Shown: positions 5,194 through 17,927 of the stretch, in pieces
How the letters are laid out: every line of letters begins with the position of its first letter
Position numbering within the stretch: position 1 is the first letter of the stretch
Made by a program: the position numbers and the translations under genes
Notes under the pieces: generated by a model
Told to the model about the DNA's origin: nothing
Database searches by the model: none
The model's input: only the letters and a program-made list of their open reading frames with translations
Origin: Bacteroidaceae bacterium
GTDB lineage: Bacteria > Bacteroidota > Bacteroidia > Bacteroidales > Bacteroidaceae
Length of the DNA stretch: 41,520 nucleotides
Direction: 5' to 3'
Assembly (NCBI GenBank): GCA_017447625.1
Contig: JAFSNB010000005.1
Location: forward strand, 1 to 41,520

Positions 5194-8143
5194 TTGCTCC
5201 GCAACGGGGGCAAACGCCCTTGTCGGCCAACTTCATCCCGCAGCGTCCGCACAGATAACGCGCGCGGGCGTGCTGCCAATATTGTTTTAAAGCGAAAATG
5301 CAGAAGGCAAGGCACAGGAGATATGTCAGCAGTCCGGACGGAAGCAGGGAAAAGAGGAGATATAGCAGCATACAGATGGCCAGTAATGAAATCAGGTACA
5401 GTACGGCATCGTGTGGACGTAGCATCCGGAAAACGTCCTGCACGACGGCCAGCGAAAGCAACATAAGCAGCCAAACTGTTATGAGGAAAGCACAGAGAAT
5501 AGGCGGCTGTGCCAGCGGGTTGAGTGTGGGGTGGAAATAGAAATGCACCCACGTCTGCGGCTCAAAGTCCTGGATGTAGGAGTACAGCACAGACGAGATA
5601 GCGAGAGTTATAGTAAGGCAGGTGGGGTAGGCTGAAGGTATATCGTTGTAGAGCAGCATACGGAACCTCTGTTTGAGCATGGAGCGTATGGCGATTATTA
5701 CTATTGCGCCTCCCATAATTATCAAGAACCAGATGAGATGTCGTGAGGAGAAAACTCGGATGAATTCGCTTATAGGGTCATCTGGGGCGGCTTCGCGCAA
5801 CAGGTCTTTCTCGTGAGTCCAACCCATTGTCAGCTGGTCGCGAGCGACCTTTACCCAAACGCTGTCGATGCTGTCCTCCGGAATAACTGTTATGGCGGCT
5901 ACCACAAGCTGGTCCAAACGTCTGACCCATTGACTGTCACTCTGAGCCGTAACGCCTTCGCTCATGTGCATTGGGCGCTCGTCCAACAACATCAACGAGT
6001 CCCCGCGAACAATGAAGTTATACCCTACGGTATAATGGTGGCTATATGCGAAGTCGATGCTGTCACGCACAGCCTCTGGCAACTCCTCCCAGCGGTCGGT
6101 GAGTGCTGTGGGACGGTTATAGCAGGATGTCAGAAGAAGTAGGAAGATGAAGAGCAGGGAAAAAAGAGGCTTGGGAGACTTATGGGGGGTATGGGGTTCT
6201 TGGGCTTTATGGGGCTTATGGGGTTCTTGGGTTTGGACTTGCATCTCGCAGTTCTTGCAGTCAAAGTGAAGGGGAAAACTGCGGCCGTCTGGCAGGCGGA
6301 GCGACCAGGGGTGGGGAGGGCTTATGGTTGAGAGTTGAGAGTTGAGGGTCGAGAGTTGAGAGATTTTTGGGGAAGTCTTGTTTGGACAGAGCCCGAGAGC
6401 GTAGCGCAGGCAATGGCGGCAAGTCATTATTGTTGCTGAGGCGGGAGCCGACAGCTCGTATGCGGGAGCGGGTTCTGGGAGGCTCTTATCAGCATAGAAG
6501 TCGCGTGCCAAACGATTGGAGACGTTGGCTGTATAGTCTGAGGGGAGGGGAATTTGATGGTTAATGGTTAATGGTTGATGGTTGATGGGGTTAATGGGGG
6601 TGATCGGCTTTATGGGTTTTATGGGCCCAACGTTATTTTCTTTTTCTGTGAGGCGGCGGCGGATGTCGGACAAAAGGGAGGAGGGTAAGAACCAGTTGTC
6701 CGAGAAATCTATACTCACATCCTTTTGGTCGGCGGCATAAATCGTGTTCCCGAGGCGGGTGAGCTGAGTGCGGATATTGTCGGCCTGCGGGGTGCGGGCT
6801 GGCTCATGAGGGTGAGGCACAAAAAGTGAGCGTGTGGTGCCATCCTCTTCAGTCAGAGTGAAGGTAAAACCGATGTTGCTTTCTGCTTCATCTGTTTGTT
6901 TGTCTGTAATCGTCCACTTGACTGCTATTCGGCGGTCGGCAGAGGGCTTGGACAGAAGGCCCTCGAAGGCGGCGTCGTAGTTGCGGTAGAGTGGAGTGCC
7001 TTTCTTCAGGTCGGGTAGAGGCGACTGGATATACAGATGATTGCCCTCGGCGCGGTTGATTCGGAACCCTTGCAGATGCCCTTCGGAATCTGTAAAGCAG
7101 AAGCCGTCGCCGTTGTGGAAGACGCTTGTCGAAGAGACTATGATATACAGCCCGCCTCGGTCGCGGCGCGTCTCTTTCATGTGTCCGACCATCTCTCCCA
7201 TAGCCTTGGGGGTGTTGAAGTTCCAGATTGGGGCCGGTGTCCGCCCATGCAGGAAGTAATCGGTAAAGCCTCGGTTGAAGCTCTTGGCCGGATCGGGCGC
7301 GAAGGTATAGGTGGATGTGCCGAGTGAAGAACGGCAGAGGTCCTTCCGGCGGCTGATTATAGCGTCAAGTCGCTGGCGGTAGAAGGCTGTTATGTTCTTC
7401 ACGTAACTGACATCTTTCAGTCGCCCTTCTATCTTCATGCTTGTCACGCCCGCGTCAATCATTTCTTCGAGGTAGTCGGCGCGGTTCATGTCACGGAGGG
7501 AGAGCAGATGACGGTCTTCAACGATGGACTCGCCGTTGGCATCCACGAGATCGAAGGCCAGGCGGCAGAACTGGGCACATTCTCCGCGATTGGCCGAGCG
7601 CCCGAAGCAATGCTGTGAGGCATAGCAGCGCCCAGAATAGCTCACGCAGAGGGCACCGTGGACGAAGGCTTCAAGGCGGACGTCCGGACAGCGGTCGTGG
7701 ATGGCGCGAATCTGCTCAAGCGGTAGCTCGCGGGCCAGCACCACCTGTTCGTAACCCTGTGAAGCAAGCCACGCGACTTTCTCCGGCGTCTGGTTGTCCA
7801 TCTGCGTTGAGGCGTGGAGCGGGATAGGTGGCAAATCCATCTTCAGCAAACCCAAATCCTGAACGATAAGTGCATCCACCCCTGTCTCATAAAGGCGGCA
7901 GATGAGGTCGCGGGTCGCCTCCAGTTCTTCGTCGTAGAGTATGGTGTTTACGGTCACATAGACTTTGGCGTGGAACTGATGGGCAAAACGGCATAGGGTG
8001 GCGATATCCTCGATGCTGTTGCCCGCTGCCGCACGCGCTCCGAAACGCTCCGCCCCGATATAAACCGCGTCGGCACCGTGGCGGATGGCCTCGATGCCGC
8101 ACGTGAGATTCTTGGCAGGTGAGAGAAGCTCAATGGGGCGCAT
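5183..8143 (-). CDS. U32 peptidase-family protein fused in frame to a zinc-ribbon membrane lipoprotein
   Basis: The reading frame is open upstream to 8257, but that part overlaps metA; the ATG at 8143 gives the family start MRPIELLSPAKN and 986 residues. Residues 1 to about 640 are a U32 protein (TrhP/RlhA-like, known to act with an iron-sulfur cluster in tRNA or rRNA hydroxylation). The U32 signature EAFVHGALCVSYSGRCYAS is followed by a cysteine-rich stretch, and CRHC...LCPNK and FDCKNCEM mark the usual U32 C-terminus. The frame then runs through a 9-bp tandem repeat (PHKPHK) into what looks like a separate protein. This part has a hydrophobic signal with lipobox LLTSC, about five membrane helices and a terminal zinc ribbon (CGRCG...CPRCG). 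An internal ATG at 6244 could start the lipoprotein separately (353 residues). Two further tandem arrays sit inside the U32 part. A true fusion would put a signal peptide in mid-protein, so two products are likely. Confidence 0.8.
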   Translation of the reverse strand: MRPIELLSPAKNLTCGIEAIRHGADAVYIGAERFGARAAAGNSIEDIATLCRFAHQFHAKVYVTVNTILYDEELEATRDLICRLYETGVDALIVQDLGLLKMDLPPIPLHASTQMDNQTPEKVAWLASQGYEQVVLARELPLEQIRAIHDRCPDVRLEAFVHGALCVSYSGRCYASQHCFGRSANRGECAQFCRLAFDLVDANGESIVEDRHLLSLRDMNRADYLEEMIDAGVTSMKIEGRLKDVSYVKNITAFYRQRLDAIISRRKDLCRSSLGTSTYTFAPDPAKSFNRGFTDYFLHGRTPAPIWNFNTPKAMGEMVGHMKETRRDRGGLYIIVSSTSVFHNGDGFCFTDSEGHLQGFRINRAEGNHLYIQSPLPDLKKGTPLYRNYDAAFEGLLSKPSADRRIAVKWTITDKQTDEAESNIGFTFTLTEEDGTTRSLFVPHPHEPARTPQADNIRTQLTRLGNTIYAADQKDVSIDFSDNWFLPSSLLSDIRRRLTEKENNVGPIKPIKPITPINPINHQPLTINHQIPLPSDYTANVSNRLARDFYADKSLPEPAPAYELSAPASATIMTCRHCLRYALGLCPNKTSPKISQLSTLNSQLSTISPPHPWSLRLPDGRSFPLHFDCKNCEMQVQTQEPHKPHKAQEPHTPHKSPKPLFSLLFIFLLLLTSCYNRPTALTDRWEELPEAVRDSIDFAYSHHYTVGYNFIVRGDSLMLLDERPMHMSEGVTAQSDSQWVRRLDQLVVAAITVIPEDSIDSVWVKVARDQLTMGWTHEKDLLREAAPDDPISEFIRVFSSRHLIWFLIIMGGAIVIIAIRSMLKQRFRMLLYNDIPSAYPTCLTITLAISSVLYSYIQDFEPQTWVHFYFHPTLNPLAQPPILCAFLITVWLLMLLSLAVVQDVFRMLRPHDAVLYLISLLAICMLLYLLFSLLPSGLLTYLLCLAFCIFALKQYWQHARARYLCGRCGMKLADKGVCPRCGAIND
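6171..6233. repeat. Nonamer tandem array at the U32/lipoprotein junction
   Basis: Seven in-phase 9-bp units of the TTATGGGGC / TCTTGGGCT type. On the minus strand they encode the repeated EPHKPHK segment that joins the U32 domain to the lipoprotein signal sequence. The 9-bp period keeps the reading frame whatever the copy number. Confidence 0.85.
6328..6362. repeat. Heptamer tandem array inside the U32 frame (TTGAGAG)
   Basis: Five 7-bp units (TTGAGAG with two variants) lie inside the U32 coding region, encoding the SQLSTLNSQLST segment between the CPNK cysteine cluster and the last domain. Gain or loss of one unit would shift the frame. Confidence 0.85.
6555..6628. repeat. Heptamer array (TGATGGT/TAATGGT) followed by nonamer array
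   Basis: Five 7-bp units (6555-6589) run directly into four 9-bp units ending in ATGGG or TCGG (6590-6625). On the minus strand the nonamers encode a P-I-K/T/N triplet repeat and the heptamers a NHQPLTINHQ segment. Two array classes adjoin within one coding region. Confidence 0.85.
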
Positions 8144-8166
8144 GAACGGATTGACGGAATTACGGA

Positions 8167-9156
8167 TTAATGGATTGCGTTGATGTCGTACGGGGTCTCC
8201 TGATAAACGTAGTAGTTGAGCCAATTGGTGAAGAGTAGATTGGCGTGGGCGCGCCAAGTGACGAGGGGGCCTTTGTCGGGGTCGTCGTCACGATAGTAAT
8301 GGCGCGGCATGTCTATGGGCAGGCCTTTGGCGAGGTCGCGGCGATATTCAGTGTCCAGAGTCAGAGGCGAGTACTCGGCGTGGCCGGTGATGAAGAACTC
8401 GCGGCCTTCGCGTGCCATAACGATGCTGACGCCGCTCTCCTCGCTCTCTGCGATGATGGTGAGGGGATGGGCCTCGGCGGGAGAACCGCCAAGCACACTA
8501 CCCGCTCCCGAAGCGGAGGCGGAAGCGAGGGCGGCGGCGTTTACCGCCTCGATGTCTTCGCGCCGGATTTCGGTGTGGCGGCTGTGAGGCATATAGAATA
8601 CGTCGTCGAAGCCGCGGAAGATGGGGAGACGGGGAAGGAGCGTGCGTTGCGGGAAAATGCCGAACATCTTGGCCGGCAGCGGATATTTGGGAACGCCGTA
8701 GTGGTAATAGAGACCGGCTTGGGCAGCCCAGCAGATATATAGCGTTGAGGTGACGTGTGTCTTAGCCCACGCGAATATCTCCTGCATCTCGTCCCAATAG
8801 TTGACTTCCTCATATTCCAGATGTTCCACGGGGGCGCCGGTGATGATCATCCCGTCGAATTTCTCATGTTTGAGCAGTTCGAAATCCTTATAGAACGCCT
8901 TCATGTGTTCTATGGGTGTGTTCTTGGAGGTGTGGCTCTTTATCTTCATGAATGAGAGCTCCAACTGCAGGGGTGAGTTGGAGAGCACACGTATGAGGTC
9001 GGTCTCCGTAGTTATCTTTATCGGCATCAGGTTCAGGATGACGATGCGGAGGGGACGTATGTCCTGAGACGAAGCTCGGGAGGAGTCTATCACGAAGATA
9101 TTCTCCTCCTTGAGCAAATCTATCGCCGGTAGGCGGTCAGGCAGGGTTAGAGGCAT
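8167..9156 (-). CDS. metA: Homoserine O-acyltransferase MetA (probably acetyl-CoA dependent)
   Basis: The enzyme activates the homoserine hydroxyl for methionine synthesis in the cytoplasm. The 329-residue sequence fits MetA throughout: catalytic Cys142 (LYICWAAQAG), then His259 and Glu261 in ITGHAEY, corresponding to Cys142/His235/Glu237 of E. coli. Residue 111 is Glu (GAPVEHLEY); published work on this family links Glu111 to acetyl-CoA and Gly111 to succinyl-CoA, so I infer acetyltransferase activity. The 24-residue shift of His/Glu comes from an Ala/Ser/Gly-rich insertion at about 208-231, encoded by a palindromic repeat element. The stop codon TAA lies in a short octamer-like repeat 23 bp before the U32 gene, suggesting cotranscription. 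Upstream are 151 bases with two heptamer arrays and a small palindrome. Confidence 0.95.
   Translation of the reverse strand: MPLTLPDRLPAIDLLKEENIFVIDSSRASSQDIRPLRIVILNLMPIKITTETDLIRVLSNSPLQLELSFMKIKSHTSKNTPIEHMKAFYKDFELLKHEKFDGMIITGAPVEHLEYEEVNYWDEMQEIFAWAKTHVTSTLYICWAAQAGLYYHYGVPKYPLPAKMFGIFPQRTLLPRLPIFRGFDDVFYMPHSRHTEIRREDIEAVNAAALASASASGAGSVLGGSPAEAHPLTIIAESEESGVSIVMAREGREFFITGHAEYSPLTLDTEYRRDLAKGLPIDMPRHYYRDDDPDKGPLVTWRAHANLLFTNWLNYYVYQETPYDINAIH
8473..8516. repeat. Composite hairpin element, copy 1 (within metA)
   Basis: Reading the minus strand: a small hairpin (CCGCT/AGCGG), then GGTAGTGTGCT, then a hairpin with stem GGCGG/CCGCC ending in CGAG. The same order and linker occur in cobQ, and the linker plus second hairpin occur in cbiB. 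It encodes the extra GSVLGGSPAEA segment of MetA. Confidence 0.75.
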
Positions 9157-9170
9157 TTATGCGAATGTGT

Positions 9171-9303
9171 AATTCATAATTCATAATTCATAATATGCTG
9201 CGCGATGAACGTCCGATGACAAAGAACGAATCGTTCTGCCAGATTGATTGTGAATTAAGAATTATGCCATTGTGAATTAAGAATTATGCATTATGAATTA
9301 AAA
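9171..9303. repeat. Two heptamer arrays (AATTCAT / ATTATGA) upstream of metA
   Basis: Three AATTCAT units at 9171-9191 and about seven units of ATTGTGA/ATTAAGA/ATTATGC at 9247-9303 flank about 55 bp of unique sequence between metA and the M13 peptidase gene. The two blocks are inverted relative to each other. Confidence 0.85.
9224..9236. promoter_or_regulatory. Candidate operator palindrome upstream of metA
   Basis: GAACGAATCGTTC is a 6+1+6 inverted repeat in the only non-repetitive part of the metA upstream region. A TTCTTTG sequence overlaps it on the minus strand and resembles a -7 box imperfectly. Its role as an operator is inference. Confidence 0.35.
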
Positions 9304-9307
9304 CCGA

Positions 9308-11326
9308 TTACCAGATGGTTACACGGTCTTCCTTCGGAATAAACATCGGATCTTTCTCAGTGATGCCGAAGGCCTCGTACCAAGCATCGATATGAGGCAG
9401 GGCACCGTTCACACGCCAACGGCCGAGGGCATGTGGGTCGCTCTTCGTGCGCACACGGATTTCCTCGTCGCGGATGTTTCCAGCCCACACGCCTGCGTAG
9501 GCCAGGAAGAAACGCTGGTCGGCGGTGAAGCCGTCGGCATCGGGCAGCGGATGACCTTTTGTGGCGTTCTTATAAGCCTGCCAAGCCACCTGCAGACCGC
9601 CGTGGTCGGCCAGGTTCTCGCCGAGAGTCAGCTTACCTTTGGCACGGAGGCCGGGCAACACTTCAATCTTGTTGAAGAAGTCCGCCATCACCTGAGTGCG
9701 CTCCTCGAACTTGGCGCGGTCCTCGGCTGTCCACCACAGACGCAGGTTACCATCCTTGTCGAACTGCGAGCCTTGGTCGTCGAAGCCGTGAGTCATCTCG
9801 TGGCCTATGACAACGCCGATGGCACCGTAGTTGAAGGCATCATCGGCCTGCATGTCGAAGAAGGGCGGCTGCAGGATTCCGGCGGGGAAGCAAATCTCGT
9901 TAGTAGTGGGGTTGTAGTAGGCGTTCACCATCTGCGGTGGCATATACCACTCTGTGTTATCCACGGGCTTGTTCAGTTTACGGCTCACCATGTCCTGAAT
10001 CTGCCACTTGCTGGTCTGCTTGACGTTCTCCCAGTAGTTGCGTCCAATCTTCAGGCCTTTGTAGTCCTTCCACTTATCGGGATAGCCCACCTTCACGATG
10101 AAGGCATCCAGTTTCTCGTGAGCCACAGCTTTCGTGGAGTCGCTCATCCACTCCTGTGCGTCGATACGCTCGCCGAGAGCCACCTGCAGGTTACGAACCA
10201 GCTTTACCATGCGCTCCTTGGCGGCTGCTGGGAAATATTTCTCAACATAGAGACGGCCTACGGCCTCACTAAGAGCACCCTCGGTACTGCTGACGGCACG
10301 CTTCCAACGCGGGCGGTCTTCCTCCTTGCCCGACATCACCTTACCGTAGAAACCGAAGCTGGCGGCCCGCATCTCGTCGTCGAGATAAGAGGCTGCCTCG
10401 TCGATGAGCTGCCAGGCCACATAGTCCTTCAGATCCTTGAGCGGGGTGTCCTTCCAGATGGCTTCCACCTCGGTGAAGAACTCCGGCTGACCTACGCTGA
10501 CTTCCTTTGCCTGGCGCACGCCCATAATGTCCATATAGATGCCCCAGTTGATGCCCGGGAACTTGGTCTTCAATTGCTCAACGCTCATCTTGTTGTAGTT
10601 CTTCTCTGGGTCACGCAGATCTGTGGCATAGCGTGAAGCCTGGGCCAGACGGGTTTCTATGGCCATTTCAGCGGCCACGTGAGCGTCGGCATCTTCCTCC
10701 TTGGCCACCTTGCAGCGGATGAACATATCGCGCATATATTTTAAGTAGGCGTCGTGGATGATGGCAGTGGCGCTGTCGAGGTCAACATAGTACTCCTTCT
10801 CGCCCATGTGGAGGCCGCCCTGGCCTATCTGCACGAGATTCATCTTAGAGTCCTTGATGTCGGCGTCGATATATGAGCCGAACATACCGCTGATGCCCTG
10901 AAGTTGCAGACTGCAGTATTTGCGCCAGAGCTCAGTCTTGCCCGGGCAGTCCATGATGTCCTGTAGGTCGGCGCGGATGGGCTCGATGCCCTGCTTGTTG
11001 AGGCTGACGCTATCCATTGCAGAGGCGTACATCTGAGCAATCATATCGGCCACGCTGCCGGGCTCGTTCGTCTGGGCGGCCACCTCCTCGATGAGGCTAC
11101 GGAGCTGCTCGCGGTTGTTCTCAGCCAGTTGGTCGAATGAGCCGAAAAGGCTGTACTCGGCTGTTAGCGGATGGGCTTTCTGCCAGCCGCCGGTGGCGAA
11201 GTCATAGAAGTCTGTGCCAACGCAGACTGTGGTGTCGAGGTTGGCTGTGTCGATGCCTGTGCCAAGGGGTTGCCCTGTGCAGGCTGTTAAGGCTATTGCC
11301 ATGATGGAATAGAAAAGTTTTTTCAT
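9308..11326 (-). CDS. pepO: M13-family (neprilysin/PepO-like) metallopeptidase lipoprotein
   Basis: The start at 11326 gives MKKLFYSIMAIALTAC, a lipoprotein signal peptide; the frame's upstream extension overlaps the ABC-F gene. The mature protein is an M13 zinc endopeptidase of about 655 residues, probably in the periplasm or on the cell surface. The zinc motif is HEMTH at residues 509-513 (known zinc ligands and general base), with the third ligand in ENLADHGG. Substrate-binding NAYY lies just upstream, comparable to NAFY of neprilysin, and the protein ends in a conserved Trp-containing tail (VTIW). Full length, no damage visible. It lies 13 bp behind the ABC-F gene, so the two are probably cotranscribed. 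The family cleaves oligopeptides; the physiological substrate here is unknown. Confidence 0.93.
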   Translation of the reverse strand: MKKLFYSIMAIALTACTGQPLGTGIDTANLDTTVCVGTDFYDFATGGWQKAHPLTAEYSLFGSFDQLAENNREQLRSLIEEVAAQTNEPGSVADMIAQMYASAMDSVSLNKQGIEPIRADLQDIMDCPGKTELWRKYCSLQLQGISGMFGSYIDADIKDSKMNLVQIGQGGLHMGEKEYYVDLDSATAIIHDAYLKYMRDMFIRCKVAKEEDADAHVAAEMAIETRLAQASRYATDLRDPEKNYNKMSVEQLKTKFPGINWGIYMDIMGVRQAKEVSVGQPEFFTEVEAIWKDTPLKDLKDYVAWQLIDEAASYLDDEMRAASFGFYGKVMSGKEEDRPRWKRAVSSTEGALSEAVGRLYVEKYFPAAAKERMVKLVRNLQVALGERIDAQEWMSDSTKAVAHEKLDAFIVKVGYPDKWKDYKGLKIGRNYWENVKQTSKWQIQDMVSRKLNKPVDNTEWYMPPQMVNAYYNPTTNEICFPAGILQPPFFDMQADDAFNYGAIGVVIGHEMTHGFDDQGSQFDKDGNLRLWWTAEDRAKFEERTQVMADFFNKIEVLPGLRAKGKLTLGENLADHGGLQVAWQAYKNATKGHPLPDADGFTADQRFFLAYAGVWAGNIRDEEIRVRTKSDPHALGRWRVNGALPHIDAWYEAFGITEKDPMFIPKEDRVTIW

Positions 11327-11339
11327 ATTGTTGGGATTT

Positions 11340-13292
11340 TTATATTTTTGCATTCTCTAATTCTTCGGAGGCTTCGAGCCAGTCGGATTCCAGCTGCTCC
11401 TGCTTCTTCTTCAGACGGTCGTAGCGCTCGTAGGCTGAGGGGTCGGAACCGTCCATATTGGCTTCGAGGATGGCGATAGCGGCGTTCACCTCGTTCATCT
11501 CCGCCTCTATGTTCTTAACGCGGTCTTCCAAACGCTTCAAGGCGCGCTTCTGGGCCTTCTGCTCTGCATAGGAAGCTGCGGCAGAGGTCGGTTCTGGCCC
11601 CCCCTTTGCCCCCCGAGTGGGGCACGATAGTTCATTGGATGAAGCAGTTCCTGCAGAGCGCACAGCTATTGAAGCCCCCTCGGGGGCAGTATGGGGGGCT
11701 TGTTGTAGCCAGTCGTATATCCCACCGAGATGCTCTCTCACTTTGCCGCCACCGAAGGAATATATGCGGCTGACGAGTCCGTCGAGGAACTCACGGTCGT
11801 GAGAGACGACGATTACTGTGCCGTCGAAGTCGCGGATGGCCTCCTTCAGCACATCCTTTGAACGCATATCGAGGTGGTTCGTTGGTTCGTCGAGGATGAG
11901 GAAATTCACGGGTTCAAGCAGCAGACGAATCATTGCGAGACGCGAACGTTCGCCGCCCGACAGCACCTTAACTTTCTTGTCCGAAGCCTCGCCGCCGAAC
12001 ATGAACGCGCCGAGGATGTCGCGGATGCGGGTTCGTATGTCGCCGCGAGCCACACGGTCAATGGTGTCAAAGACAGTCAGCTCGGGGTCGAGCAACTGTG
12101 CCTGGTTTTGTGCGAAATAGCCTATTTGGGCGTTATGACCCACCTTAAGCGTTCCCTCGTAGGGAATCTCGCCGAGGATGCACTTTACGAGAGTGGATTT
12201 GCCCTCGCCGTTCTTTCCCACGAACGCCACCTTCTCGCCTCGGCGGATGGTGAGGTTTACGTGGGAGATGACGGGGTGGTCATAGCTTTTGCTTAGGTCC
12301 TCGACGATAAGGGGGAAGTCGCCGCTGCGCTGGCAGGGTGGGAACTTCAAGTGGAGGGCTGAGTTATCGACTTCATCCACCTCAATCGGGACGATGCGTG
12401 CCAGTTGCTTTATGCGTTCCTGAACCTGAACGGCTTTGGTGGGTTTATAGCGGAACCGCTCTATGAATTCCTTGAGGTCGGCGATTTCCTTCTGCTGGTT
12501 TTCGTATGCCCGCAGTTGCTGTTCGCGGCGCTCGGCCCGCAGACGCACGTACTCGTCGTACTTAACTTTATAGTCCCACACCCGTCCGCATGAGATTTCG
12601 AGCGTGCGGTTTGTTACGTTGTTTATAAATGCGCGGTCGTGGGAGACCAGAATTACGGCTCCCGCCTGCTGCACAAGATACTGCTCGAGCCATTGTATGC
12701 TCTCGATATCAAGATGGTTCGTGGGCTCGTCAAGCAGTAGCACGTCGGGCTTGCGCAGCAGCAGTTTGGCCAGTTCGATGCGCATACGCCAGCCGCCGGA
12801 GAGCTCGCTTGTTGGGCGGTCGAACTCCTCGCGCCCGAAACCGAGACCAATCAAAGTGCGTTCTATCTCTGCGTGGAAGTTCAGACCTCCCATCATCTGG
12901 AAACGTTCCTGGGCGTGGGCGTAGCGTTCGCAGAGATCCATGTAGTCATCGCTCTCGTAGTCGGTGCGCCGGGACATCTCTGCGTTCATCTGTTCTATGG
13001 AGGCCTGCATATCGTGTATATGCTCGAAAGCGAGCATCGCCTCTTCCATGACTGTGCGACCGCCTGCCAGATCCATCACCTGCGGCAGATAAGCTATGTT
13101 GCTGCCTTTGGTTGCGGTGACGGTGCCGCTGGTTGGCATCTGCTCGCCAGCGATTATTCGCAGCATAGTGCTTTTGCCCGCCCCGTTCTTTCCTGTAAGG
13201 GCTATTCGGTCGCGGTCGCCAACGACAAAGGAGACCTCCCGGAACAGAGGCCGCGCGCTAAATTCCACACAAAGATTATCAACAGTTACCAT
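11340..13292 (-). CDS. ABC-F family ATP-binding protein
   Basis: The 650-residue soluble protein has two ABC ATPase domains and no membrane part, as in the ABC-F translation factors and resistance proteins that bind ribosomes. Domain 1 has Walker A GKNGAGKST, signature LSGGW and LLLDEPTNHLD; domain 2 has GKNGEGKST, LSGGERSR and LILDEPTNHLD. A charged helical linker containing RFRYKPTKAVQVQER joins them, and the C-terminus is a coiled coil (about 570-645). Between domain 2 and the coiled coil there is a roughly 38-residue Pro/Ala/Gly-rich insertion encoded by two GC-rich palindromic repeats (11594-11703). A -7 box lies upstream and the M13 peptidase gene follows after 13 bp. Which ABC-F subgroup it belongs to is not decided from sequence inspection. 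Confidence 0.93.
   Translation of the reverse strand: MVTVDNLCVEFSARPLFREVSFVVGDRDRIALTGKNGAGKSTMLRIIAGEQMPTSGTVTATKGSNIAYLPQVMDLAGGRTVMEEAMLAFEHIHDMQASIEQMNAEMSRRTDYESDDYMDLCERYAHAQERFQMMGGLNFHAEIERTLIGLGFGREEFDRPTSELSGGWRMRIELAKLLLRKPDVLLLDEPTNHLDIESIQWLEQYLVQQAGAVILVSHDRAFINNVTNRTLEISCGRVWDYKVKYDEYVRLRAERREQQLRAYENQQKEIADLKEFIERFRYKPTKAVQVQERIKQLARIVPIEVDEVDNSALHLKFPPCQRSGDFPLIVEDLSKSYDHPVISHVNLTIRRGEKVAFVGKNGEGKSTLVKCILGEIPYEGTLKVGHNAQIGYFAQNQAQLLDPELTVFDTIDRVARGDIRTRIRDILGAFMFGGEASDKKVKVLSGGERSRLAMIRLLLEPVNFLILDEPTNHLDMRSKDVLKEAIRDFDGTVIVVSHDREFLDGLVSRIYSFGGGKVREHLGGIYDWLQQAPHTAPEGASIAVRSAGTASSNELSCPTRGAKGGPEPTSAAASYAEQKAQKRALKRLEDRVKNIEAEMNEVNAAIAILEANMDGSDPSAYERYDRLKKKQEQLESDWLEASEELENAKI
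11594..11703. repeat. Paired GC-rich palindromic elements inside the ABC-F gene
   Basis: Two hairpin-forming stretches (GCCCCACTCGGGGGGC at the low-coordinate end, and GCCCCC/GGGGGC at 11673-11688) lie about 50 bp apart within one coding insertion. The second is followed on the + strand by AGTATGGGGGGCTT, close to the element at 32892-32922. Confidence 0.65.
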
Positions 13293-13311
13293 TATTTGCT
13301 TTTTTCCGGTG

Positions 13312-13319
13312 CAAAGATA
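13312..13319 (-). promoter_or_regulatory. Bacteroidota -7 box (TATCTTTG) for the ABC-F gene
   Basis: The minus-strand TATCTTTG matches TAnnTTTG and is 20 bases before the ABC-F start codon, implying a very short leader. No matching -33 TTG was seen. Confidence 0.6.
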
Positions 13320-13358
13320 CGCCTATCCGCCGCCTTTAGCAGCCTATGACGAATGAAA

Positions 13359-13393
13359 TATCACCCAGTTTAACATACTTTAAGCGGGTGATA
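13359..13393. terminator. Hairpin at the end of the cobalamin locus
   Basis: TATCACCC and GGGTGATA pair as an 8-bp stem with a 19-base loop, 28 bp after the last gene of the locus. On the minus strand it is followed by TTTC, and on the + strand by GGTTTTTAG, so termination is plausible but not canonical. Confidence 0.4.
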
Positions 13394-13420
13394 GGTTTTT
13401 AGAGGCGATTTCTGTTGCTT

Positions 13421-14197
13421 TCATCTCATTTGAATCTCGAAACGGCGAGCGGAGGCTTCATATATAAGAGCGTCGCAGTCGAAGTAACGGCCTATATCTC
13501 CGCTCTTGCCGAGGGCCTCGGGCGTGCCGTCGGTGAGTCCTTTCTCTTTATCCAAAAGCCACAGGCGGTCAGCCACGCAGACGGCGTGATCGAGGTCGTG
13601 AGTGGAGAGCAGCACACATTTGCCAAGCTCGCGGGTGAGGCGGCGCAGAAGTAGCATGGTGCGAATCTTGCTGGGATAGTCAAGGAAGGCGGTGGGCTCA
13701 TCGAGGAATATTATGGGTGTCTGTTGTGCGATGGCTTTGGCCAGCATCGCTTTCTGACGTTCGCCGTCGGAGAGGGAACGTAGGGGACGGTGGGCGAGTT
13801 CGCTTATGCCAATGAGACGGATTGCCTCGTCTGTAGCCTTCTCGTCCGCGGCTGAGAGGCGTCCCCAGAAGTTGGTGTAGGGACTGCGCCCCAAAGCTAC
13901 GACCTCGCGAACGGTCATGTTGAGGTGAGGCACGCTGCCTGTGAGCACGATGCTTATCAGTCGGGCGCGCTCCTGGGCGGTGTAAGAGGAGAGAGACCGG
14001 CCATCGAGGGTTACGCTGCCCTCAAGTGGCGGGAGTGTGGCTGTTAGCGTTTTCAGCAGAGTGCTCTTACCCGCTCCGTTGGGACCGAGCAAACAAGTCA
14101 TTTCACCCGCCTTCAGGCTGGCGGTGAGGTTGCGGGATATGGGGTGGACGGCGTGGCGTGAGCGGTAGCCAGTGGTGAGAGAGGTGAAGGAAAGCAC
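13421..14197 (-). CDS. btuD: Cobalamin/iron-siderophore type ABC transporter ATPase (BtuD-like)
   Basis: The 258-residue ATPase powers inner-membrane import with a BtuC/FecCD permease. Walker A is GPNGAGKST, the signature is LSDGERQK (typical of the FecE/BtuD group), Walker B is IIFLDEPTAFLD and the H-loop is STHD. It is the last gene of the cobalamin locus. The matching permease lies about 7.4 kb upstream (21610-22623) and the binding lipoprotein further still (31650-32804), so the three parts are scattered among biosynthetic genes. Assignment to cobalamin or cobinamide rather than iron chelates rests on this context. Confidence 0.85.
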   Translation of the reverse strand: MLSFTSLTTGYRSRHAVHPISRNLTASLKAGEMTCLLGPNGAGKSTLLKTLTATLPPLEGSVTLDGRSLSSYTAQERARLISIVLTGSVPHLNMTVREVVALGRSPYTNFWGRLSAADEKATDEAIRLIGISELAHRPLRSLSDGERQKAMLAKAIAQQTPIIFLDEPTAFLDYPSKIRTMLLLRRLTRELGKCVLLSTHDLDHAVCVADRLWLLDKEKGLTDGTPEALGKSGDIGRYFDCDALIYEASARRFEIQMR

Positions 14198-14202
14198 GGG
14201 AA

Positions 14203-14246
14203 AAGTAAAAATTAAAAGGTAAAAATTAAAAGGGAAAAGGAATAAA
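14203..14246. repeat. AT-rich repeat (TAAAAATTAAAAGG) between cbiB and btuD
   Basis: A 14-bp unit occurs about three times with decay directly after the cbiB stop codon and fills the 49-bp gap to the ATPase gene. Confidence 0.7.
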
Positions 14247-15236
14247 TTAAAAGAGGGTAGAGACTATTGGGTCTATATGGCTTATAAGGCCTATTAGGCT
14301 TATGGTTAAGATTACAGCTATCGTTTCTGCAATGAGAGCGATGCGGATGCTGAGACGGCAGTCGGCGGTGGTTAGGGGGCGCGGATTAGTGCCTATATAG
14401 GGCTTCTCCACGGCTTGACCGAAGTAATCGTGAGTGCCGCCGAAACGGCAGTCGAGAATTGCGGCGAGGGCTGCCTCGGGCCAGCCGCTGTTGGGAGAGG
14501 CGTGGGCAGGGCCGAAGCGGAGGAGGAAACGGTAGTGTGCTCGACGGTTTTGCCGTCGAGAAAAATTACCGACGATTAGTATCAGCAGGGCTGTGAGGCG
14601 GGCGGGGATATAGTTGGCGATATCATCAATGTGGGCGGCCCAACAGCCGAACTGACGGTAGCGGTCGGTGCGATAGCCTATCATGGAGTCGAAGGTGTTG
14701 ATTACTTTATAGGTTAGCATTCCTGGCACACCAAGAAGGGCAAGCCAGAACAGTGGGGCGATGACGCCGTCGGAGAGGTTCTCGGCCAGAGTCTCAAGGG
14801 CCGCCTGTCGTATCTCCTGAGCGGAGAGCGACTGGGTGTCGCGACCCACGATCCGTGCCACCTGAGTCCGTCCCTCTTCCACGCTGCGATCCACAGCCTC
14901 GAATGTCATACGAACCTCGCGCCGCAGGGTGTGGCCTGCAAGGCAGAAGAAGATGAGGATAGAGGATAATGTTAAATGGAAAATATTAAATGTAAAATGT
15001 AAAATGTGAAATGTATAGGGGGTAAGGGAAAGGAGGTAGAGTACGGCGGCTGTGCCAGCAAAGACTAACAGTATGGTTACTATGACCAGAATAGCTCCCT
15101 TCAGCATATGGTAGTTGCCTAGGTTGAGACGCTTTTCCCAGAAAGCAATCCAGCGGCCTATATACACAACGGGGTGGGGCAGCCGCGCGGGGTCGCCGAA
15201 GAGAAGGTCAAGAATCCAACCGAAGAGGAGAGACAT
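14247..15236 (-). CDS. cbiB: Adenosylcobinamide-phosphate synthase CbiB
   Basis: This integral membrane enzyme attaches (R)-1-aminopropan-2-ol phosphate to adenosylcobyric acid. The 329-residue protein has the family start (LLFGDPARLPHPVVYIGRWI), the conserved TLAENLSDGVIAPLFWLALLG and NTFDSMIGYRTDRYRQFGCW segments, and about five membrane helices. Three repeats are written into it: a heptamer array encoding a Phe/His/Leu-rich stretch at about 75-92, an antisense copy of the hairpin element giving FSRRQNRRAHY, and a nonamer array giving an I-x-x triplet repeat at the C-terminus. All keep the frame open, and the catalytic segments look intact. It follows cobD by about 116 bp of repeats. Confidence 0.93.
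   Translation of the reverse strand: MSLLFGWILDLLFGDPARLPHPVVYIGRWIAFWEKRLNLGNYHMLKGAILVIVTILLVFAGTAAVLYLLSLTPYTFHILHFTFNIFHLTLSSILIFFCLAGHTLRREVRMTFEAVDRSVEEGRTQVARIVGRDTQSLSAQEIRQAALETLAENLSDGVIAPLFWLALLGVPGMLTYKVINTFDSMIGYRTDRYRQFGCWAAHIDDIANYIPARLTALLILIVGNFSRRQNRRAHYRFLLRFGPAHASPNSGWPEAALAAILDCRFGGTHDYFGQAVEKPYIGTNPRPLTTADCRLSIRIALIAETIAVILTISLIGLISHIDPIVSTLF
14264..14308. repeat. Nonamer array in the 3' end of cbiB
   Basis: Five 9-bp units (for example CTTATAAGG and CCTATTAGG) encode (I-S-L)(I-G-L)(I-S-H)(I-D-P)(I-V-S), the last predicted membrane helix end of CbiB. The period is a multiple of three. Confidence 0.8.
14531..14560. repeat. Hairpin element, copy 2 (within cbiB, opposite orientation)
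   Basis: The + strand reads GGTAGTGTGCTCGACGG, a TTTTG loop, then CCGTCGAG, followed by AAAAATT. It matches the element in metA and cobQ but lies antisense to its host gene. The stem is CTCGACGG/CCGTCGAG (8 bp), with compensating changes relative to the cobQ copy (A-T in place of G-C). Confidence 0.8.
14968..15016. repeat. Heptamer array inside cbiB (AATGTAA)
   Basis: Seven 7-bp units of AATGTTA/AATGGAA/AATGTAA/AATGTGA lie in the cbiB frame and encode a stretch rich in Phe, His, Ile and Leu. The same unit family occurs between genes at 37538-37579. Confidence 0.85.
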
Positions 15237-15237
15237 A

Positions 15238-15355
15238 GTTTTATTTTACGATTTTACGATTTAAAGATTTTACTATTTATTTACTATTGAGCGATTTTAC
15301 GATTTGGCTGCGCGAAGCCTTAATTATGAATTATGCATTAAGCATTATGAATTTA
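15238..15355. repeat. Octamer and heptamer arrays between cobD and cbiB
   Basis: Octamers of the TTTTACGA type (15238-15305) are followed by AATTATG/CATTATG heptamers (15322-15355). The last heptamers reach the cobD stop region. Nothing else is visible in this gap. Confidence 0.8.
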
Positions 15356-16378
15356 TCGGATCCATTCTTGGATGGCAGCGATGAGGGCGTTGTTCTCTTC
15401 TGGTGTCTGCACTGCGATGCGGAAGAAGGAGGCGTCGAGCCCCTCGAAGTTAGAGGCATCGCGGATAAGGATGCCGCGCTCTGTGGCAAGCCATTCTTTA
15501 AGAGCGGAGGCGCGACCTATGCGCAAGCGACAGAGGAGAATGTGGGTGTCTGATGGCCACGGCTCGATGACGCCAGTCTTTGAGAGTTCAGCGGCTACTC
15601 GTTCGCGCTCATGAAGCAGGTCTGCAAGTGGGAGGACGTAATCAGTCTTATGTCGGAGCAGATATATGCCCGCGGCTTGTGAGATGCTGCCGACGGTCCA
15701 CGGCATACGCTGCCGACGCAGAAGCTCGGATAGCGTTTGGTTTGCTGTGATATATCCCAGACGAAGGCCAGGCACCGCAAATTCTTTTGTCATGGAGTGA
15801 AGCATTATGATATTGGGCAGGGCTGCGGCTTCTTTTGGGGAAATAAGAGGGTGCTGAGTGAAGGGGGCGTAAGAGGCATCTATAACGAATAACGTGTGCG
15901 GGTGAATCTCGGTGAAATGGCGCATTTCGGATTCAGGAACGACTGTGCCAGTAGGGTTGTTGGGGTTGCAAAGCCAAAGAAGAGGCCCAACCCCGGATGG
16001 TCCATCACTGGCGGGGATGTCTTTGAGAGAGTAAATTGCTTTTACGCGGTGTTCGTGTGTGCGGCAGGCATCGGCATACTCGGAGAAAGTGGGTTGAAGA
16101 ATGTAGGATGTGGAGCGACGGAAGACCTGTGCCACGAGATAGATGGCTTCTGTGGCTCCTGCGGTGGCAATTACCTCTGAAGGGGAGAGGCTGAGGTCGG
16201 CAGCTAAGGCTGCTTCCAGGCGTTCGGGTGAGGGCTCCGGGTAATTAGCCACAGAGGGCAGGACCTCTGCGAGATGGGCATAGAGGCCATCGTGGCAGAA
16301 GTGGCTGTAAATGTTGCTGCTGAAATTGAGGCGGATGTCCGTGTAAGCGTGGATGTCGTCTCCGTGGCCGTTAATCAT
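15353..16378 (-). CDS. cobD: L-threonine-O-3-phosphate decarboxylase CobD
   Basis: This PLP enzyme of the aminotransferase class I/II fold makes (R)-1-aminopropan-2-ol phosphate for CbiB. The 341-residue sequence begins with HGDDIHAY and LNFSSNI, as in the family, has NPNNPTG for cofactor binding, DASYAPF in the sheet, and the Schiff-base lysine in HSMTKEFAVPGLRLGY. The conserved C-terminal arginine segment FFRIAVQTPEEN is present. Its start overlaps the end of cobQ by 8 bp, indicating translational coupling, and cbiB follows, so substrate maker and user are neighbours. Histidinol-phosphate aminotransferases are the closest alternative, but the context and the HGDD start favour CobD. Confidence 0.92.
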   Translation of the reverse strand: MINGHGDDIHAYTDIRLNFSSNIYSHFCHDGLYAHLAEVLPSVANYPEPSPERLEAALAADLSLSPSEVIATAGATEAIYLVAQVFRRSTSYILQPTFSEYADACRTHEHRVKAIYSLKDIPASDGPSGVGPLLWLCNPNNPTGTVVPESEMRHFTEIHPHTLFVIDASYAPFTQHPLISPKEAAALPNIIMLHSMTKEFAVPGLRLGYITANQTLSELLRRQRMPWTVGSISQAAGIYLLRHKTDYVLPLADLLHERERVAAELSKTGVIEPWPSDTHILLCRLRIGRASALKEWLATERGILIRDASNFEGLDASFFRIAVQTPEENNALIAAIQEWIR

Positions 16379-17927
16379 GTGTGAGTATTTTATATAGTTT
16401 CTGGATGTCTATGTGCTTGCGGATATGGGCTGCCAGGCGGTCATATTGCTCCTCCTTGAAGGCGGAGGCTGAACTCGGCGGCAAAACCGCCGAGCACACT
16501 GCCCCCTGAGGGGCGGCTGCATATGGGGTGAAAGCAGATGAGGCGGTTGCAGAAGCTGGAACAGCAGATGAGGCGGCTTTGAGGAGGGATTCGATGACGG
16601 GTGGGTTGTCGAGGAAGCCGTGGATGTAGGTGCCGAGGCAGCGGGGAGCGCGGGTGAAGTGTGAAGAGGGGTCGCAAGTTGTGTGCCCAGATGTTTGGGA
16701 AGGGGCAGCCGCAATGTCGTTAGTGCTTATGCCTTGATGGATTTCGTAGCCCTGACAGGTATAGCCTTCCCAGTCGAAGGTGACTTGACGGGTGGTCTTG
16801 GAGGCTGTCATAACGGTATTTATGGGCAGGAGACCGAGACCTGGCAGAGAGGGTATATCGCCCTCAATGCCGTCTGGGTCGCTGACGGTTTGCCCGAGCA
16901 TCTGATAGCCTCCGCAGATGCCTACGACTATGCGCCCGTTGCGGTGAGCGCGGATTATGGCCTGAGCACATCCGTTACGACGCAGTTCAAGCAGGTCGTC
17001 AAGAGTGGCTTTGGTGCCAGGAAGTATTATAATGTCCGCCCGCTCAATGTCGGTGGTGTTGTTTGTGTAGAAGAGGTTCACGCGCGGGTCGCGCTCCAGA
17101 GTGCCGAAGTCGGTGAAGTTGCTGATATGTCGCAGCAACACTACGGCCACATTCACTTTCCCCTCTGCCAGTTCACGACGTTTACGCTCGAGACTGACGC
17201 TATCCTCCTCCTCGATGACTATGTCTGTGAACATAGGCACGACACCCAACACTGGCACGCCACACACCTCTTCCAACATCTTCCGCCCCTCTTCGAAGAG
17301 ACGGATATCGCCACGGAACTTATTGACTATTATTCCTTTTATGCGACTGCGATCCTCGGGCTGCTGAAGCATTATGCTGCCATAGCAGGAGGCGAAGACG
17401 CCGCCTCTGTCTATATCAGCAACGAGGAGGACGTCAGCATCAGCGTGTCGGGCCATCGGCATATTCACCAAGTCGCTCTCCCGCAGGTTTATCTCTGCTA
17501 TGCTGCCCGCTCCCTCCATCACGATAGGGTTATATCGGGCAGCGAGGCGGTCAAAGGCAGCACATACTTCGCTACGCAGTTCCTCACGCCCTTCTTTTCT
17601 GAAATAGTCGTATGCTGAGCGGTTTCCTATGGGCTTTCCGTTGAGTACCACTTGAGTTGTATGTTCGGAGTTGGGCTTCAGGAGCAGCGGGTTCATGTCC
17701 GTATGCGGATCCAGACCACAGGCTTCGGCCTGCACCGCCTGGGCACGCCCAATTTCTCGTCCGTCGGGTGTGGCGAAAGAGTTGAGTGCCATGTTCTGCG
17801 CTTTGAACGGAGCTGGGTGAAATCCGTCTTGCAGAAAAATGCGGCAGAGAGCCGTGGCAATGACGCTCTTGCCTACGTCGCTGCCTGTGCCGGCAAGCAT
17901 TATGGGGTGAAGATATTTAGAATTCAT
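16371..17927 (-). CDS. cobQ: Cobyric acid synthase CbiP/CobQ
   Basis: The enzyme amidates four side chains of adenosylcobyrinic acid diamide using glutamine and ATP. The N-terminal synthetase half has the P-loop-like GTGSDVGKS and PFKAQNMALNS. The C-terminal class I amidotransferase half has the nucleophile in GICGGYQMLG and a conserved His in YEIHQG. Length is 518 residues, slightly above the usual 480-500, because an Ala/Ser/Pro-rich insertion near the C-terminus is encoded by the composite hairpin element (16474-16514). The assigned start ATG (17925-17927) lies in a heptamer array that also provides the cbiA stop; MLAGTGSDVGKS nine residues later is an alternative start. The end overlaps cobD by 8 bp. 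Confidence 0.94.
   Translation of the reverse strand: MNSKYLHPIMLAGTGSDVGKSVIATALCRIFLQDGFHPAPFKAQNMALNSFATPDGREIGRAQAVQAEACGLDPHTDMNPLLLKPNSEHTTQVVLNGKPIGNRSAYDYFRKEGREELRSEVCAAFDRLAARYNPIVMEGAGSIAEINLRESDLVNMPMARHADADVLLVADIDRGGVFASCYGSIMLQQPEDRSRIKGIIVNKFRGDIRLFEEGRKMLEEVCGVPVLGVVPMFTDIVIEEEDSVSLERKRRELAEGKVNVAVVLLRHISNFTDFGTLERDPRVNLFYTNNTTDIERADIIILPGTKATLDDLLELRRNGCAQAIIRAHRNGRIVVGICGGYQMLGQTVSDPDGIEGDIPSLPGLGLLPINTVMTASKTTRQVTFDWEGYTCQGYEIHQGISTNDIAAAPSQTSGHTTCDPSSHFTRAPRCLGTYIHGFLDNPPVIESLLKAASSAVPASATASSAFTPYAAAPQGAVCSAVLPPSSASAFKEEQYDRLAAHIRKHIDIQKLYKILTHD
16474..16514. repeat. Composite hairpin element, copy 3 (within cobQ)
   Basis: On the minus strand: GCCCCTCAGGGGGC hairpin, then AGTGTGCT, then a stem CGGCGG/CCGCCG with loop TTTTG and a trailing AG. 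Same architecture as in metA but read in another frame (GAVCSAVLPPSS). Confidence 0.85.

Follow-up and report, generated by a model that had tools for sequence, protein, structure and literature searches.

A probable REP-like mobile hairpin within metA, cbiB and cobQ of a Bacteroidaceae genome and a candidate transposase family

How does one short hairpin come to lie inside three genes, metA, cbiB and cobQ, where it is read in different frames and on different strands? The question is raised by a stretch of 41,520 nucleotides from a Bacteroidaceae bacterium (contig JAFSNB010000005.1, assembly GCA_017447625.1), referred to in its whole length as the window. In the current analysis the three sites have been interpreted, with reasonable confidence, as copies of a mobile hairpin that resembles the repetitive extragenic palindromes (REPs) and is spread by a system like that of REPs and REP-associated tyrosine transposases (RAYTs). 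Transposition of the hairpin is what we infer. The system is unusual in being largely intragenic, in genes that are left unbroken, and biased in strand and frame.

The hairpin unit and its three sites

All three host genes lie on the minus strand: metA (homoserine O-succinyltransferase, PF04204; 8167..9156), cbiB/cobD (PF03186; 14247..15236) and cobQ (PF07685 and PF01656; 16371..17927). The element in metA (8473..8499, minus strand) has the foot AGTGTG, the stem CTTGGCGG/CCGCCGAG with one G-T pair, and the loop TTCTC. That in cobQ (16474..16500, minus strand) has the stem CTCGGCGG/CCGCCGAG and the loop TTTTG, and the copy in cbiB (14534..14560, plus strand), which is antisense to its gene, has the stem CTCGACGG/CCGTCGAG and the loop TTTTG. 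An original prediction made from the letters of the window had proposed that the sites share the pattern GGYAGTGTGCTYGRCGG, and this is found with no mismatch at 8486-8502 (minus), 14531-14547 (plus) and 16487-16503 (minus). With up to three mismatches allowed, shuffled windows contain 0.86 matches on average and eight of 100 shuffles get to three. The compensatory stem change that had been described (G-C in cobQ, A-T in cbiB) is genuine and every strand by itself folds into the hairpin claimed. The reading frames had also been given correctly, being GSVLGGSPAE in MetA, AVCSAVLPPS in CobQ and, antisense, RRQNRRAHY in CbiB. In MetA the element together with an Ala/Ser-rich stretch makes up an extra loop of 24 residues (about 207-230; 8467..8538, minus strand); the alignments of other genomes cover residues 1-206 and 231-329 of the window protein and leave this loop out.

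The unit is about 27-30 nt long in all; the 5' foot [Y]A(G/C)TGTG is joined to a hairpin with a stem of 8 bp and the loop TTYYS. Among 195 copies, which are those of 234 non-redundant copies that retain A[GC]TG[TC]G, conservation spans position -1 (C/T), the foot, the stem, the TTYYS loop and a weak A after the stem, with none beyond. In 112 distinct aligned rows 98.0% of the cells are paired and double changes occur at all eight pairs; shuffled controls have 84.3% pairing with 3.7 pairs doubly changed, and slid structures 31.5-60.7% pairing. As these rows came from a model that rewards pairing, the count has been repeated on 118 copies retrieved with a pattern that leaves three pairs free. 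The three are Watson-Crick in 109, 111 and 114 of the copies respectively, and all at once in 102. The stem sequence changes while the palindrome is kept. The consensus, as read off, is free of stop codons in all six frames.

These covarying arms, along with the many further copies, the empty or short sites and the occurrence of both orientations at one site described below, support the view, argued at the outset, that the three sites hold an inserted nucleic-acid element rather than a motif of the protein. A composite unit of two hairpins, which had also been suggested, does not hold. The second hairpin is present in the best fold and the centroid of cobQ and in the best fold of metA but not in the metA centroid, and nothing outside about -1 to +28 is conserved in the 195 copies; it is not part of the conserved unit and the composite has therefore been rejected. 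A known structured RNA family has been rejected as well, since a scan of window positions 7800-17500 with Rfam 15 gives no match up to an E-value of 1.

Copies, host genes and occupied sites

The genome that holds the window (G000; 2.56 Mb, 73% complete) contains four exact copies of the foot and both stem arms, searched as a pattern, against none of the reversed pattern, and a fifth copy with three mismatches. A covariance model built from six copies (R1) has 41 matches in this genome at E<=10, and 25 remain at E<=0.01. A second model (R2), rebuilt with 119 matches from other genomes, has 28 at E<=0.01, and in the window it recovers the three element sites and no others. Further copies, whose lack in the genome the original prediction would have counted against an inserted element, are numerous, both in this genome, where the 28 matches include the three sites of the window, and in congeners. 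R2 finds 1-52 matches each at E<=0.01 in 47 of 101 congeneric genomes and none in the other 54. At the scale of the family, 29 of 301 genomes, spread over eight of 30 genera, have matches at E<=0.001, and a genome of another genus (G273) holds 20 elements. A degenerate pattern run over GTDB species genomes retrieves at least 116 stretches. Eighty of these are all titled Bacteroidetes, Bacteroidales, Bacteroidaceae, Prevotellaceae or Prevotella, frequently with a ruminant source, and the other 36 comprise 35 from the same taxa and one 'uncultured bacterium'. Tandem runs of two or three elements, 32-80 bp apart and mostly extragenic, have also been observed (L097 1943-2115; L163; L052 4187-4288; L088 4139-4249; L079 6650-6718).

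The location of the 234 copies has been assessed with a codon-usage gene caller trained on element-bearing loci and a second caller for comparison. With the former, 168 copies fall in open coding frames and 56 in sequence that is weak or non-coding, and a further 10 are at gene ends; the latter has 176 inside genes and 58 outside, an intragenic share of 72-75% over the two. Genes are not clearly avoided, since weak or non-coding sequence accounts for 24% of the copies and 19% of random positions. In addition to MetA, CbiB and CobQ, a scan of ten out of the 19 host open reading frames in the window's own genome has identified MutL, DNA polymerase I, carbon-nitrogen hydrolase, PfkB kinase, UvrA, ClpB, HAD hydrolase, SurE, class I tRNA synthetase and RmlD as hosts.

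Freely mixed reading frames, as the three window sites had seemed to indicate, are not characteristic of the family. When related hosts are grouped, the 171 coding copies form 118 sites, of which 92 are in the frame seen in metA (sense frame 0), 17 in other sense frames and nine antisense, where mixed groups (seven of the 118, two of them due to a misplaced anchor) are assigned by majority and ties arbitrarily. Sense orientation is therefore found at 109 of the grouped sites. These coding, orientation and frame counts retain two weak matches in HisD (L106, L053), which are probably due to chance because the peptide is native there. The 58 extragenic copies, not all of which are independent, include 32 between two co-directed genes in sense and three between two genes in antisense, with eight between opposed genes and 15 that have no called neighbour on one side. 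The sense-0 peptide is small and Gly/Pro-rich, and the other sense frames are Cys/Arg-rich or hydrophobic; selection against Arg/Cys-rich or hydrophobic frames may lie behind the frame bias. Two antisense frames look equally harmless and yet are rare, which together with the sense bias of the non-coding copies suggests a strand effect on insertion or retention that depends on the direction of transcription.

Orthologues without the insertion, a comparison proposed in the original prediction, do exist. MetA is present in 127 of 139 genomes of the genus, and its site is readable in 29 of 30 fetched loci (all except L218). The site segment has 28 residues in 12 loci, 30 in G028 and 33-67 in 16 (52 in the window), and short and filled sites occur side by side within the genus. 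MetA of G059 is 94% identical over residues 1-206, yet its site is short. In G028 the cob region is 92-94% identical and the cbiB and cobQ elements are unchanged, and MetA is short. G087 has neither cob element at the sites of the window, and its CobQ has a different copy, SVSASDSSPVGAS, at a place some 90 residues upstream that is empty in the window; the two species have the element at two different positions of the one gene. At a site in a gene which we take to be GltB-like the element is sense in two loci (L046, L100), antisense in two (L078, L054) and absent from two (L057, L171). When L042 is compared with L142, and likewise the tRNA synthetase of L032 with that of L150, exactly 27 nt are missing from the partner genome; further pairs differ by other amounts. 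The pairs compared are diverged, several 'empty' partners hold a hairpin of their own, and length differences apart from the 27-nt unit extend from -30 to +12 (0 in two comparisons).

Worn or altered-looking hairpins are seen in long MetA sites (L198, L201, L203). The metA genes of L198 and L203-L206 encode related Pro/Glu/Gly/Ser loops (TVPEGSPEG, TVPSDSPEG), apparently worn or altered copies, some with the stem kept. In L201, the metA of G066, the loop is enlarged by several repeats of a hairpin that resembles GTGCCTGGCGCTTTTCCGCCAGG and encodes VPGAFPPG; this is apparently a local variant that has been multiplied on the spot. Overlapping opposite elements, both translated (ALDGQTAENTVPDGSAVEI), have been observed in L047 (7359-7411) and L113 (2276-2328), with a single one in L136 and L144.

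A candidate transposase family

A divergent protein family that could mobilise the element came to light only through the element-bearing loci. It is encoded in L073, L143, L168, L182, L045, L092 and L154 and in L031 of the window's own genome. The nine members aligned have 364-536 aa and contain the motifs MP[DE]H[LI]H and Y..xNP, which are separated by a variable linker, as well as another conserved domain. NCBIfam REP_Tyr_transpos is the top family in all five proteins scanned (E-values 1.4e-8 to 1.3e-3), each below the 80-bit cut-off. An AlphaFold model, with a mean predicted local distance difference test score (pLDDT) of 73 and a disordered linker, matches ShosA (E-value 9.4e-5), DprA (1.9e-3) and TnpA of ISDra2 (2.7e-3), of which only ShosA lies below 0.001; the template modelling scores (TM-scores) over the whole chain are low because the two domains match separately. 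A sequence search of the PDB with the transposase profile gives nothing significant, the best match being ISDra2 TnpA at an E-value of 0.07. Judging from the sub-threshold family scores and the model comparison, the candidate is likely to be a RAYT-like transposase of a divergent Y1/HUH type that also has a DprA-like domain, and is referred to as Y1-DprA. PKD matches of four of the proteins (E-values 0.003-0.1) are below the cut-off and have been set aside. Ordinary IS200/RAYT enzymes, as recognised by PF01797, have been rejected as the mobiliser; a search of the window's own genome finds none, and they are found in seven of 20 chosen congeners (five of ten element-rich and two of ten element-free genomes).

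Same-strand hairpins adjoin both ends of the Y1-DprA gene in L073, L228 (the locus of L143) and L232; in the last of these the stems differ and one match is weak (E-value 0.0017). A hairpin at the 3' end only is seen in L182 and, weakly, in L231, and the linker of the transposase itself contains hairpins in L031, L073, L143, L168 and L182. In G269, outside the genus, one element precedes the gene by 28 bases on its strand and another lies within it. Crowding of transposase genes near elements (five of the 116 pattern-fetched stretches) is little above rough expectation and has not been used.

A Y1-DprA member at E<=1e-6 is encoded in 95 of the 139 genomes of the genus. Members at E<1e-50 are present in all 20 genomes of the genus with at least five elements compared to 33 of the 81 others, and at E<1e-100 in 14 of 20 compared to 13 of 81 (Spearman correlation of element and transposase 0.68). 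In other genera a member has been identified in nine of 12 element-bearing genomes and, as a weak match, in one of 12 element-free ones that were chosen by low handle number (Fisher p 0.0028). The family is multi-copy, with seven matches in G000 and 18 in G085, and many of its genes are without this hairpin nearby; other members may have hairpin families of their own.

Mechanism, known systems and rival explanations

In the proposed mechanism the Y1 domain would recognise the foot and hairpin on single-stranded DNA, cut, and rejoin the unit elsewhere, as has been proposed for RAYTs, and the DprA-like domain would help to hold the single strands. Single-strand transfer by the Y1 domain is most likely, and fits the conserved foot and tip, the exchange of the paired stem, and the copies beside and inside the transposase gene. 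Insertions into surface loops would be read as about 9-10 extra residues that are tolerated and decay later; they would be survivable because all six consensus frames are without stops. A more specific form is offered tentatively, as a possibility: a REP system of Bacteroidales in which the Y1/HUH-DprA enzyme places stop-free hairpins of about 28 nt preferentially on the coding strand, targets genes in a transcription-coupled manner, and causes conserved or essential proteins to gain and lose Gly/Pro loops.

The palindromic elements of Rickettsia (RPE) and Wolbachia (WPE) are similar in lying within genes of conserved enzymes and being read in frame. RPEs are about 105-150 bp long, whereas the unit here has about 27-30 nt, and their hosts belong to an unrelated phylum; no mobiliser of either kind is known to us. 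The comparison with RPEs drawn in the original prediction is fair as regards the way the element works, but REP sequences with tyrosine transposases are closer. With REP/RAYT systems the element shares the dispersed short hairpin, the 5' foot, the exchangeable paired stem, a Y1/HUH protein in the genome and, in places, hairpins at the ends of the transposase gene. In published descriptions most REPs lie between genes and have the foot GTAG or CGTC, with intragenic ones notably in Rickettsia conorii (available portion of PMC3733652), and RAYT genes have two inverted REPs as flanks (available portion of PMC2817692); the flanking copies here are direct and most copies lie in genes.

Among these systems the closest is in particular that of TnpA-Y1 subclass 2.4, which, in the portion of PMC6006769 available, is abundant in Bacteroidetes and Cyanobacteria and has in-frame REPs between the HuH and Y motifs, the interval that holds the in-frame copies here; atypical feet are also reported there for some TnpA-Y1 classes. 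The protein identified here is longer (364-536 aa) and has the DprA-like domain, and the term DprA is absent from the main text of that paper. The CGTC-tagged REPs, including RPE-4 and RPE-6 of R. conorii, have a similar stem of 8-9 bp and a loop of 4-5 nt, occur as intragenic in-frame copies and are reported from phyla that include Bacteroidetes; they differ in the CGTC foot and the AT-rich start of the stem, a feature that the element here does not have, and in being mostly intergenic, with no transposase association reported in the available portion of that account (PMC3733652). IS200/IS605 elements such as ISDra2 are comparable in the Y1/HUH fold, by model comparison, and in the same-strand hairpins at both ends of three loci, and differ in that many solo hairpins and an extra DprA-like domain are found here. 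Coding palindromes are treated in the available portions of PMC10969869, PMC2229807 and PMC6649704. Among the titles and abstracts listed from the open-licence literature, none deals with such elements in Bacteroidales or Prevotella, or with a RAYT joined to DprA.

Several observations weigh against the REP/RAYT-like interpretation. The foot is (A)(G/C)TGTG and not GTAG or GTGG, no target-site duplications are seen in the diverged filled and empty pairs, and the Pfam cut-off of Y1_Tnp (PF01797) is reached by none of nine proteins, three being sub-threshold. Any element match (E<=1) accompanies 12 of 30 transposase loci, with both ends flanked in two, and in all three both-end loci the flanking copies are direct, on the strand of the gene. 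The association counts ignore the kinship of genomes, most of which are incomplete; a member at E<=1e-6 is absent from five of 47 element-bearing and present in 24 of 54 element-free genomes of the genus. The high-copy genomes G017 and G076 have weaker members only (5.8e-70 and 6.8e-77), and the best member of the high-copy G028 holds a stop. The missing enzymes, which extend to three of 12 element-bearing genomes in other genera, and the lack of flanking copies at most transposase loci would suit a selfish palindrome of the RPE kind that is spread by a different mechanism, Y1-DprA being a bystander with copies in its variable linker. This appears unlikely in view of the same-strand copies at both gene ends in L073, L228 and L232 (the first two being close relatives) and the association of element and transposase inside and outside the genus, and the missing transposases are explicable by incomplete genomes or lost genes.

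It is very improbable that the hairpin is selected in the mRNA, for stability, pausing or termination, and spreads as a by-product. The strong sense bias, extragenic copies included (32 against 3), and the perfect stems would be in keeping with this, but the occurrence is patchy, with 54 of 101 congeneric genomes lacking a match, antisense copies are found at the same site, MetA copies look worn, and Rfam has no counterpart. Hardly any likelihood is left for template-switching palindromes in repetitive loops or for selection at the protein level on a linker peptide with the motif S/T-V-x-[DG]-G-x-x-x. Template switching has been discussed as a process that maintains palindromes (available portion of PMC6649704), but it would leave the unpaired foot and loop free to vary. 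In favour of the peptide motif, one frame encodes it at 92 of the 118 grouped sites and the 20 preceding residues are enriched in Ala (0.129 against 0.084) and Ser (0.105 against 0.058). The AGT and GTG positions, however, are nearly invariant despite synonymous codons, in copies preselected for A[GC]TG[TC]G, and the nucleotides are the same in copies that are antisense, non-coding or in other frames; the antisense and non-coding copies already disfavour the peptide motif.

Coding palindromes have mostly been treated as something peculiar to Rickettsia and Wolbachia. A similar phenomenon is described here for many species of gut Bacteroidales, together with a candidate enzyme family that these genomes encode, and the in-frame entry of short palindromes into genes is thereby opened to experiment. 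Conserved enzymes would in this way gain new loops at their surface, and annotators may bear in mind that an Ala/Ser/Gly/Pro-rich insertion in such a protein can be the debris of a mobile element.

A second, AT-rich kind of repeat, like AAAATGGAAAATTGAAAATTAAAAATT, has been observed inside cbiB (window 14960-15015) and also at 14200-14240. It is further seen in the MetA loop of L210 and L212, where it encodes KMENGKLKIKDEELKIEG, and in the tRNA synthetase (L032) of the window's own genome.

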